Source: Sulfurimonas sp. (GTDB lineage: Bacteria > Campylobacterota > Campylobacteria > Campylobacterales > Sulfurimonadaceae). Taken from it: a stretch of 50,073 nt of DNA. Each line of letters begins with the position of its first letter. Within the stretch, counting starts at the first letter, position 1. The notes beneath the pieces were generated by a model, which saw nothing but the letters and a program-made list of their open reading frames with translations, ran no database searches and was not told the origin of the DNA. The stretch lies in the NCBI GenBank assembly GCA_027068455.1, contig JAMOSN010000044.1:1-50073 (forward strand). Reading direction: 5' to 3'. The position numbers were made by a program, and so were the translations under genes. Below are positions 36,901 through 39,348 of this stretch, in pieces.

Positions 36901-37482
36901 GACAACTCTTTGCTTATCTTTGATGAAAATGAGGGGTGGCATAGTGATGATGAGATAAACCGTGAAGAGCTTAAAGATATTATAGGTCGTGCAAAAGAGG
37001 TATTTACCTTTCCAAGACAGCGAAAAAAACCCCACAGAGCACTGAGTGACTTTTTCCATTCAGACAGACATGATGTGGTCGCCTTTACCTGTGTGAGTGC
37101 CGGAAGTAAACTGAGTGAGGTTGAGCGTGAAATCTATGAAAGAGGTGATTATACAGAGTATTATCAGTTCCATGGACTCGGTGTTGAACTTGCTGAAGCA
37201 CTTGCAGAGATAGCACATAAACAGATTCGTCTTGACCTTGGTATTATCGCTGAAGATGAGGGGGCTACACTCTCAGATGTACGCATGAATCGTTACCAAG
37301 GGAGTCGCTACTCTTTTGGATACGCTGCGTGTCCAGATTTGGAACTGAATCGTCCACTCTTTAATCTCTTAAAACCTGAGGAGTATGGCATAGAACTAAG
37401 TGAAACTTTTCAGATACATCCAGAACAATCAACTTCAGCACTTGTGGTATATCACCCTGAAGCTACCTATTACAATGTTTAG
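33997..37482 (+). CDS. metH: Cobalamin-dependent methionine synthase
   Basis: IDGAMGTQLQ, GGCCGTTPQHIRAL, GERSNATGSKAFRELL, GTVKGDVHDVGKNLVDIIL (B12 binding), C-terminal activation domain. Confidence 0.97.
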   Translation: MTTQEYIRQTIKKRPLIIDGAMGTQLQQRDDKIPKEAWEGNEGCNELLNVTAPEVMNEIFHAYLTAGADFITTNTFGSFSWVLDEYQIGHRAYELTRAGAELVKKQCEAFSTPEHPRFCLGSIGPGTKLPSLGHITYDEMFEGYTEFCLALIDGGVDVFLLETCQDPLQIKAALHACQEANTQRGTNIPIMVSVTIELSGSMLIGTDAQTIATIMEPFDILSLGFNCGTGPEQVEKHVKTLSELWGKPISVHANAGLPQNRGGYTYYPMGPDEFATKQENFLKYDGVSFLGGCCGTTPQHIRALVDRVSSITPKTPSGSQENSLASLFGTVPLMQQPAPLLMGERSNATGSKAFRELLLAEDYEGTLSVAQQQVRAGAHVIDVNVGFAGRDETKDMNAVMGMYNQKIPIPLMPDSTQTKGLETALKNIGGRPILNSVNLEDGEEKFDAVCQLAKKFGTALVCLTIDEVGMAKTVENKLAIAERIIKLATERHGLKKEDLVFDVLTFTLGSGDEEYLDAGINTIEAIRKLRRRHPEVGTTLGLSNISFGLDKDARPYLNSMFLHHCLEAGLTSVIINVKHIIPINKISKEDQEICDNLIFNRGEEPLFKFIEHFSIKEAVDNDAEDAEYLAMSDEEKIAKLLMDGDKERIIPLVEEVRHRIAPERIVNEILIDGMKVIGELFGSGQMQLPFVLQSAETMKKTVDYLNPYLPKVEKAVDTTLVLGTVKGDVHDVGKNLVDIILSNNGYKVKNLGIKVELDQFLETLDNPNISAIGMSGLLVKSTQVMLENLKTLEEKGITIPVLLGGAALTRSFIDDFCRPAYSGPIFYCKDAFDGVTAMSRIEAGNMDTNLHPDVPEIEKKEEKELIIPPFKEIKMPSRDVKVPTPPFWGRREIKLTQQQVEMAFKWINHKLLFKSRWGYTSKGMSKEAYEKQLDEVVWPAYEKLKQRFLEEKLFEPTILYGYWPCRSDDNSLLIFDENEGWHSDDEINREELKDIIGRAKEVFTFPRQRKKPHRALSDFFHSDRHDVVAFTCVSAGSKLSEVEREIYERGDYTEYYQFHGLGVELAEALAEIAHKQIRLDLGIIAEDEGATLSDVRMNRYQGSRYSFGYAACPDLELNRPLFNLLKPEEYGIELSETFQIHPEQSTSALVVYHPEATYYNV

Positions 37483-37504
37483 TTATTTTATGATATAATT
37501 TCAC

Positions 37505-37602
37505 CATCAAAGCGTGGTTGCTTTGTGTGTGTAAGTTCAAATGTCATGTGGTACTTACAACAATAAGCCTCATCAATCTTTATGATTGGTGGGGCTTTTT
37601 TG
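37505..37602 (+). ncRNA. Candidate small RNA (about 100 nt; 5' hairpin, seed-loop hairpin, intrinsic terminator)
   Basis: Extended -10 TGATATAAT at 37491-37499; hairpin CAAAGC-gtggtt-GCTTTG (37508-37525); hairpin GTAAGT-16 nt loop-ACTTAC (37531-37558); terminator 37565-37597 followed by TTTT. Confidence 0.6.
37565..37601 (+). terminator. Intrinsic terminator of candidate sRNA
   Basis: AAGCCTCATCAATC tttat GATTGGTGGGGCTT: 14-bp stem with two G-U pairs, followed by a T tract. Confidence 0.8.
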
Positions 37603-37649
37603 GTTTAATGGTTGGGCTATGTGGGTTAGATTGTTTGTAGGAAAACCAC

Positions 37650-37721
37650 ATGACACTGGATTTACACACCGTAGGCTATCTGATTATAGCAGCTATCTAT
37701 ATAGCTTTTGCTATAAAGTAG
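37650..37721 (+). CDS. 23-aa hydrophobic micropeptide (toxin-like single TM)
   Basis: ATG at 37650 preceded by TAGGA SD with 7-nt spacer: MTLDLHTVGYLIIAAIYIAFAIK*. Its start region pairs with the candidate sRNA. Confidence 0.5.
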   Translation: MTLDLHTVGYLIIAAIYIAFAIK

Positions 37722-37730
37722 TAACTACGA

Positions 37731-37755
37731 CCTAAGGGACTAACCACCCCTTAGG
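37731..37755. terminator. Hairpin between micropeptide ORF and comM stop
   Basis: CCTAAGGG actaaccac CCCTTAGG, perfect 8-bp stem overlapping the comM stop codon. Confidence 0.5.
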
Positions 37756-39265
37756 CTTCTCGTCTTCTATAGGAGAGTGCTTCTAAAATATGCTCTTTTT
37801 CAATTGTATCACTTTGTACTAAGTCTGCAATAGTACGTGCTACTTTTTGCACCTTTTTTATACTGCGAAATGAGAGACGAAAACGCTCTACAGCCATACT
37901 TAAAATATTTTCTGCTTCTTCATTTAAGGTGCAATACTTTGCTATATCTTCATCACTGAGTTTTGCATTAAACTCTTTTTGCCCTCTCTCTTTGGCAAAA
38001 ATATGAGCACTTACCACCATCTTGTGCATCTCTTTGGAACTCAAGCTTGATTTATCATCACTTCTGATATTTTGCATCACAACATAGAGATCAATTCTAT
38101 CTAAAAACGGATCGGAAAGTCTGTTTTTATATCGCTGTATCTCCAACTCATTGCAACGACACTCTTTATGTTCATCCAAAAGATTACCACAAGGGCATGG
38201 GTTCATAGCTCCTATAAAAACAAAATTTGCAGGATATTCTATTTTTGCATTCACTCGCGAAATACGTATCTTATTATCTTGCAAAGGCTCACGCAATGCT
38301 TCTATCACACCTTTTGAAAAATGTGGCAATTCATCAAAGAACAGTACTCCATTATTCGCTAGTCCCACTTCCCCTATACGAGCTTTATAACTCCCTCCAC
38401 CAAATATAGAAGCAGTAGTAGCACTATGGTGTGGGGATTGTAATGGTCTATGGGGTTTAAAGCTTGGCTCTTTGCCATCTAATACTTCAAGTTTTGCTAA
38501 ATCCAAAATTTCACTCTCTTGCATTGGTGGCAATATATAGCGAAGTCGTTGTGCTATCATACTTTTTCCACATCCTGGACTCCCTTCCAAAATAATATTA
38601 TGAAATCCAGCAGCGGCAATAACAGCTGCTCTTTTTGCAATCTCTTGCCCTTTTACATCTAAAAAATCCTCTTTATATTCTTTAATGTAGTAGTATTTCA
38701 CCCCATCTATCTCATAATAATCATACCCTAAAGGAATCTCCTGTGCAAACTGTTGCGTTGTTGTCTTGTTTTGCAGTACCTCTATCGCCTCTTGTAAAGT
38801 TTTAACCCCATAAAAAGCTATATTTGGAATTTTTGATAGTTTATCAAGTGCATCATAGGGGACAATTGCTTTGGAGATACATTTTTGTTTTGCCAAAGAG
38901 AGGATAAGAGGATAGAGTTGGATGTTCTCTTTTACACTTCCATCAAGACCAAGTTCACCAAAAACAAACCACTCATCAAAGTTTTCTTTTGATTCATTAA
39001 GAACAATAAGTAGTGCCATACATAAATCAAACTGCGTACCCGATTTTGTAAGTTCAGATGGAGCAAGGTTGATAGTAATACGTTTTGGAGGAAAACGAAA
39101 CTCATTACTTAAAAGTGCTGATTTTACACGCTCTTTTGCTTCTGAAATGGAGCTAGAGACCATCCCTACAATTGAAAATGAGGGTAAACCTTTCGTCAGT
39201 GTTGCCTCAACATCAACAACTTTTGCATCAAACCCTTCATAGGTAGCACATCTGAGTGTCTGCAT
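37751..39265 (-). CDS. comM: YifB/ComM-family Mg-chelatase-like AAA+ ATPase
   Basis: VEATLTKGLPSFSIVGMVSSSISEAKERVKSAL, LEGSPGCGKSMIAQRL, GGGSYKARIGEVGLANNGVLFFDELPHF; GGAGG SD supports ATG at 39265. Confidence 0.92.
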   Translation of the reverse strand: MQTLRCATYEGFDAKVVDVEATLTKGLPSFSIVGMVSSSISEAKERVKSALLSNEFRFPPKRITINLAPSELTKSGTQFDLCMALLIVLNESKENFDEWFVFGELGLDGSVKENIQLYPLILSLAKQKCISKAIVPYDALDKLSKIPNIAFYGVKTLQEAIEVLQNKTTTQQFAQEIPLGYDYYEIDGVKYYYIKEYKEDFLDVKGQEIAKRAAVIAAAGFHNIILEGSPGCGKSMIAQRLRYILPPMQESEILDLAKLEVLDGKEPSFKPHRPLQSPHHSATTASIFGGGSYKARIGEVGLANNGVLFFDELPHFSKGVIEALREPLQDNKIRISRVNAKIEYPANFVFIGAMNPCPCGNLLDEHKECRCNELEIQRYKNRLSDPFLDRIDLYVVMQNIRSDDKSSLSSKEMHKMVVSAHIFAKERGQKEFNAKLSDEDIAKYCTLNEEAENILSMAVERFRLSFRSIKKVQKVARTIADLVQSDTIEKEHILEALSYRRREA

Positions 39266-39348
39266 AACCAACCTCCAAAACTTTTTTGGAAATCAGTATA
39301 GCTATTTTAATAATTTTGGAGAGATTATATGACAAAATGCCATATTAT

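Follow-up and report, generated by a model that had tools for sequence, protein, structure and literature searches.

A putative same-strand type I toxin–antitoxin module in Sulfurimonas, with relatives across the Campylobacterales

The window analysed here is a stretch of 50,073 nucleotides from a Sulfurimonas sp. contig (JAMOSN010000044.1), and it contains a compact module of approximately 260 bases on the forward strand. Upstream lies a gene that we take, from reading its ORF, to be metH (+ strand, stop at 37482); downstream is an ORF on the other strand (37751–39271, − strand) that reads as a gene of presumably the YifB/ComM type. The module consists of a putative small RNA (sRNA) gene, its intrinsic terminator and a short ORF for a hydrophobic peptide, with these features:

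37491–37499, + strand: extended −10 element TGATATAAT, the putative sRNA promoter, read in the window sequence
37506–37602, + strand: putative antitoxin sRNA, its start inferred 7 nt past the −10 and its end lying in the T tract
37508–37525, + strand: first hairpin (HP1), loop GTGGTT at 37514–37519
37531–37558, + strand: second hairpin (HP2), GTAAGT/ACTTAC with a 16-nt loop that holds the seed TGTCATGTGGT at 37542–37552
37553–37564, + strand: ACTTACAACAAT, the right arm of HP2 and the next bases, which in the co-fold pair imperfectly with the ribosome-binding region of the mRNA for the peptide
37565–37601, + strand: intrinsic terminator, a 14-bp stem (37565–37597) and T tract, giving the sRNA 3′ end
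37607–37641, + strand: 5′ leader of the peptide mRNA, G-rich and conserved according to leader comparison (GGTTGGGCTATGTGGGTTAG...), with an sRNA target ATTGTTTGTAGG at 37630–37641
37645–37669, + strand: sRNA target over the start codon and codons 4–7 (ACCACATGACA at 37645–37655; TTTACACAC at 37661–37669)
37650–37721, + strand: ORF for a 23-aa hydrophobic peptide MTLDLHTVGYLIIAAIYIAFAIK, the putative toxin, from family alignment and dN/dS
37731–37755, + strand: 3′ hairpin of the peptide mRNA, with AACCAC as its loop (37742–37747)

We identified 54 complete modules in environmental Campylobacterales and on two viral contigs, with a common layout of antitoxin RNA, terminator and peptide ORF that occupied one strand in every module read. 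Type A, to which the window RNA belongs, has HP1 first and then its seed in the loop of HP2, and its peptides have 23–27 aa with the core HTVGYLLIATIYIVFAFK. In type B the seed lies near the 5′ end of the RNA and is followed by a hairpin such as GAGG-CTGATTA-CCTC, and the peptides have 18–21 aa (for example MLLRLVVLLIIAGYFTRLL). A third type, C, has the same scaffold with a peptide of approximately 31 aa (for example MDYLNFSIAVIAVIITLFREEIREVLFKLGK) and comes from a different family of this order (G049: L119, L144); a genome of yet another family (G227, L143) has a copy that seems to have lost most of its ORF. Outside the genus, type A was also found in a second genus of the same family (L077) and in members of two other families (L079, L080, L084, L081). 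Both viral contigs, L106 with ORFs that we read as portal, capsid and protease-like and L107 with one that we read as terminase-like, contain complete modules.

Further genomes of the genus that have the element were identified by a DNA search, and at these loci differences in the loop go along with differences in the ORF start. Within the 135 genomes of the genus, the A-type covariance model (R1) has matches in 35, with a maximum of five per genome, a count that includes weaker matches needing to be read one by one; the B-type RNA model has matches in 44, some of which are type A, and the A peptide is matched in 15. Several draft contigs end in or beside the RNA gene (L095, G018:C212; L103, G133:C78; L063, G001:C49; L125, G128:C75), as would be expected if repeated copies break assemblies, and the counts per genome are therefore probably too low. 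Collections of plasmid and phage records gave no match. Weak peptide matches in G473 and G041 proved on reading to be parts of ordinary genes, and a quick look at weak RNA matches (L116–L118, L141, L142, L146) revealed no module. In one genome (L088, G123:C48, approximately 300–570) an insertion of approximately 240 bp, MITE-like and with inverted-repeat ends GTAAGAGAACACAAATAACTTCATAG, splits the leader of the peptide mRNA; a perfect 14-nt seed match is retained in this copy despite the insertion.

The original prediction, made from the window alone, had described a compact three-hairpin RNA behind an extended −10, with GTAAGT/ACTTAC and a 16-nt loop in the middle and a 14-bp terminator with a T tract at the end. 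Each of these parts was located as listed above, and every helix has compensatory changes among the relatives. Model R1 matches the window with 118.5 bits at 37489–37603, the window RNA being itself a member of the model. Two-sided changes occur in 23 of 26 helix pairs of the A-type alignment and in 12 of the 14 pairs of the terminator stem, and the covariation score is 0.386, compared to 0.198 in shuffled alignments and no more than 0.105 in slid ones. This alignment was fitted to the model and has 35 rows, two of them reverse-strand matches to the palindromic terminator; two modules were entered twice, although the tool gives identical rows a single count. At the position of the putative sRNA promoter, 51 of the 54 modules have a −10 with 5–6 of the 6 consensus letters, and a terminator stands behind the sRNA in the module loci read. 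The Rfam search that had been proposed as a check was run and returned no family at gathering score in the window or in ten representative loci. OrzO-P scored 14.1 bits against a required 60, which is chance level.

It had also been proposed that the HP2 loop presents the core of a pairing with the start of the downstream ORF. The match is real, but the perfect run comprises 11 nt rather than the 12 named: TGTCATGTGGT in the loop pairs with ACCACATGACA, which spans the ATG of the ORF, and the seed has no other 11-nt match anywhere in the 50-kb window. Pairing extends in both directions, GTGTGTAA with TTTACACAC over codons 4–7 and ACTTACAACAAT with the ribosome-binding region, such that sRNA and mRNA co-fold into one long interrupted duplex. 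The energy of the whole duplex is −50.6 kcal/mol, compared to a mean of −27.8 in dinucleotide shuffles, none of which was as strong (0 of 1000). A run of 11 nt alone was matched in 15 of 1000 shuffles, and the window locus by itself is therefore only suggestive.

The relatives allow a stronger comparison, in which we scored the body of each RNA with the start region of every module of the same type and assessed significance by permutation. Among the 23 modules of types A and C, the perfect run averages 10.9 nt with the cognate start and 6.6 nt with others (−46.4 versus −29.1 kcal/mol), and among the 31 B-type modules 10.4 versus 6.1 nt (−33.9 versus −23.7 kcal/mol), with p=5e-5 in each case. 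The paired sequences vary between modules, yet in each type the RNAs favour the start of their own ORF. One module (L047) pairs poorly at the seed, its cognate start ranking second in an earlier module set. These permutation tests, like those of the second contact below, assume that related modules are exchangeable.

A second contact, which the original prediction did not include, joins the variable loop of the hairpin 3′ of the peptide ORF to the loop of one sRNA hairpin, HP1 in types A and C and the GAGG-CCTC type hairpin in B. The two loops are complementary, module by module: GTGGTT:AACCAC in the window (HP1 loop and 3′ hairpin loop), and elsewhere GTAGC:GCTAC, TGATTA:TAATCA, TAACCA:TGGTTA, GTGATGA:TCATCA(C), TAACTAA:TTAGTTA and GGTAAA:TTTACC. 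The mean perfect loop–loop run is 4.7 for cognate and 3.6 for non-cognate pairs in A and C, and 5.2 versus 3.2 in B (p=5e-5 each); with every loop pair entered a single time, p is 1.5e-4 (A and C) and 5e-5 (B). In four modules (L060, L064, L067, L075) the loops were missed by automatic folding and were set by hand ahead of this test, and two others (L068, L072) have little match at this contact. With cognate covariation at both sites, the complementarity of antitoxin RNA and toxin mRNA that is required of a type I system is satisfied. Besides the covarying partner of HP1, the comparison adds to the first description a conserved family of hydrophobic peptides and a mobile pair resembling a toxin–antitoxin (TA) system.

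The peptide evolves, judging from its codons, under purifying selection, since the core has a median dN/dS of 0.19 and dN is smaller than dS in all 120 computable pairs. Across the modules the peptides have 18–31 aa, with a mean GRAVY of 1.24 in type A and 2.00 in type B, and this size and hydropathy fit type I toxins. Neither Pfam nor NCBIfam gave a match to the peptides at E values up to 10, including to Fst or any other known type I toxin family, and together with Rfam they hold no family that covers the RNA or the peptide. A single weak match to the window peptide, of unknown function, was found in PHROGs (E=0.028). No sigma70 promoter was recognisable ahead of the toxin ORF, where the best −10 scores about as well as shuffled sequence, and the peptide mRNA may come either from an unrecognised promoter or from read-through past the terminator. 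The leader contains a G-rich motif, GTTGGGTTATGGGG in type A and GTGTTGGGTGGGAGTGC in type B. In general form (approximately GTTGGGTNNNGGGG, window 37607–37630) this motif is kept in types A, B and C while seed and loops vary.

The two halves of the module are not retained equally. Among 28 strong A-type sRNAs of the genus, 19 are accompanied by a peptide and 9 are not. Conversely, every one of the 19 peptides that could be evaluated has an sRNA, two more being at contig ends where this could not be judged. Solitary sRNAs keep their promoter and terminator, and behind several of them (L005, L046, L054, L071) remnants of the mRNA, either leader or 3′ end, remain. That the peptide is lost first is the expectation for a toxic peptide, although toxicity is itself inferred. 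In one case (L084, G469:C132) the peptide ORF is shortened to 17 codons by an early stop, and the neighbouring A-type module (L080) is intact.

The possibility that the element is no more than the 3′ terminator of metH, with a complementarity due to chance, draws on its position immediately 3′ of that gene (stop at 37482) and on the shuffles that attain the 11-nt run (15 of 1000). It is refuted by the relatives, which occur in unrelated gene contexts, have their own −10 and covary in their pairing across 54 modules, and we give it practically no weight. The view that this is a regulatory RNA and not merely a metH terminator is thus supported as far as sequence tests can reach, since the element keeps its −10 and terminator in contexts without metH and the terminator cannot be said to serve that gene alone. 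With no Rfam family matched either, neither of the refuting conditions of the original prediction that sequence can address is fulfilled. A cis-acting leader would dispense with a separate sRNA altogether: there would be a single transcript, and after read-through past the terminator its upstream arm would fold over the start of the peptide, attenuating or sequestering it. The single strand, the lack of a clear promoter ahead of the ORF and the very stable joint fold (−92 kcal/mol) all suit such an arrangement. However, strong terminators with tracts of T8–T9 separate the halves in almost all copies, the repeat-like insertion in G123 parts RNA from ORF without loss of the 14-nt match, and the solitary sRNAs keep both promoter and terminator. 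We therefore consider a cis-acting leader unlikely.

We think it equally unlikely that the peptide is a small membrane protein without toxicity, a physiological helper of some membrane complex tuned by the sRNA as an ordinary antisense regulator. The peptide sequence is well conserved and there are no data on toxicity, both of which leave room for this role; against it, the modules are patchy, multi-copy and mobile (an A peptide in only 15 of 135 genomes of the genus, and copies on viral contigs), the sRNA outlives the peptide but not the reverse, and the dissimilar peptides of types A, B and C share one scaffold. Very probably, the window contains a compact type I TA module, with the sRNA as upstream antitoxin and the 23-aa peptide, a single hydrophobic helix, as downstream toxin, both on the + strand. 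What can be read directly from the sequences are the two pairings and their covariation, the structure of the sRNA, selection on the peptide and the retention of the RNA after peptide loss; a TA role is favoured by this order of loss and by the patchy, multi-copy and partly viral distribution, with toxicity at the membrane, as well as transcription, being inferred.

Under this type I reading, the loop of the sRNA 5′ hairpin would kiss the loop of the mRNA 3′ hairpin, and the HP2 loop with its flanks would zip across the ribosome-binding site, the start codon and the first codons, so that translation would be blocked; the resulting duplex would probably invite RNase III. Both the order of binding and the fate of the duplex are inferences. 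Since modules differ in their seed and loop sequences, a single genome could contain several of them with little cross-talk. The nearest parallel to this mode of recognition in our comparison is par_pAD1 of Enterococcus, whose RNA II makes its first contact as a kiss with the terminator loop of the fst mRNA and afterwards covers the start site (PMC7472228); both have a small hydrophobic toxin, a kiss at a 3′ hairpin loop and a second region over the start site. The genes of par_pAD1 are convergent, with a bidirectional terminator and direct repeats in common, which makes their complementarity automatic, whereas the RNAs of the modules described here come from separate sequences on the same strand, with separate hairpins, that co-evolve; these modules do not have the Fst layout.

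An adjacent, non-overlapping antitoxin sRNA with short complementarity is also known from tisB/istR-1, shoB/ohsC, zor/orz, dinQ/agrB and timP/TimR. In these systems the antitoxin is divergent and on the opposite strand, and the four from E. coli have no overlap with the start site (PMC7667032, PMC4147584). Our modules do not meet that description, having an antitoxin upstream on the same strand that covers the start codon and makes a second, 3′ contact. AapA/IsoA of Helicobacter, a type I system that also belongs to this phylum, has a hydrophobic peptide of approximately 30 aa; IsoA is antisense to aapA, and the full-length aapA1 mRNA folds into an inactive form until its 3′ end is processed (PMC8322730). 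A comparable 5′–3′ pairing within the toxin mRNA was dropped, because cognate pairs did not outperform shuffled ones (p=0.30 and 0.64) and the module mRNAs thus lack the cognate signal; it is with the sRNA that the 3′ loop covaries. The B-type peptides (18–21 aa) resemble, we believe, E. coli Ibs in size and composition. Sib RNAs are encoded opposite ibs and overlap it, in contrast to the same-strand order without overlap seen here.

Gene order is shared with type III TA systems although the mechanism differs. ToxN is a ribonuclease that is neutralised by RNA binding the protein directly, and its antitoxin consists of tandem repeats; a 23-aa hydrophobic ORF and an sRNA of three hairpins, not a repeat array, do not answer to this. 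In ToxIN the antitoxin RNA, an intrinsic terminator and the toxin follow one another on one strand, and the toxin mRNA of type III systems arises by read-through (PMC4147584). Type I antitoxins are usually defined, as in a recent paper, by being encoded opposite the toxin strand (PMC12390103), a criterion that our modules fail, and they should therefore be seen as a variant layout rather than as standard members of type I. One search method handles overlapping pairs only (PMC12390103). Since type I searches rely on opposite-strand antitoxins, a same-strand family would be missed. The literature searched yielded no type I system from Sulfurimonas and none of this layout, but coverage was incomplete and an earlier description is not excluded. 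In the absence of expression or toxicity data, our best reading is an apparently new type I TA family that combines a mechanism like that of par_pAD1 with the same-strand order of type III.

A wider reading, which we hold tentatively and put a little short of an even chance, is that same-strand type I modules of the Campylobacterales form a superfamily, in which one two-contact scaffold (a kiss at the 3′ loop and a zipper at the start site) is combined with at least three dissimilar peptide toxins. The contacts would diversify together as an orthogonal code, allowing about five modules in a genome, and the two RNAs of a module may come from one promoter with a leaky terminator. The paired arms are inverted repeats in DNA, and template switching may therefore maintain their complementarity. 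The many divergent, internally matched modules represent a natural data set on how antisense pairs switch specificity without loss of function, and loop swaps in a laboratory strain would put the two-site code to a direct test. In one genome (L073, G094:C10:25700–28900) three B-type modules stand in tandem, approximately 300 bp apart, each with its own pair of seed and loop, an array that we count, like the complete viral copies, in favour of the type I module. Two solitary antitoxin RNAs (L042, L044) lie directly 5′ of an ORF that resembles a small DNA-binding type II antitoxin.
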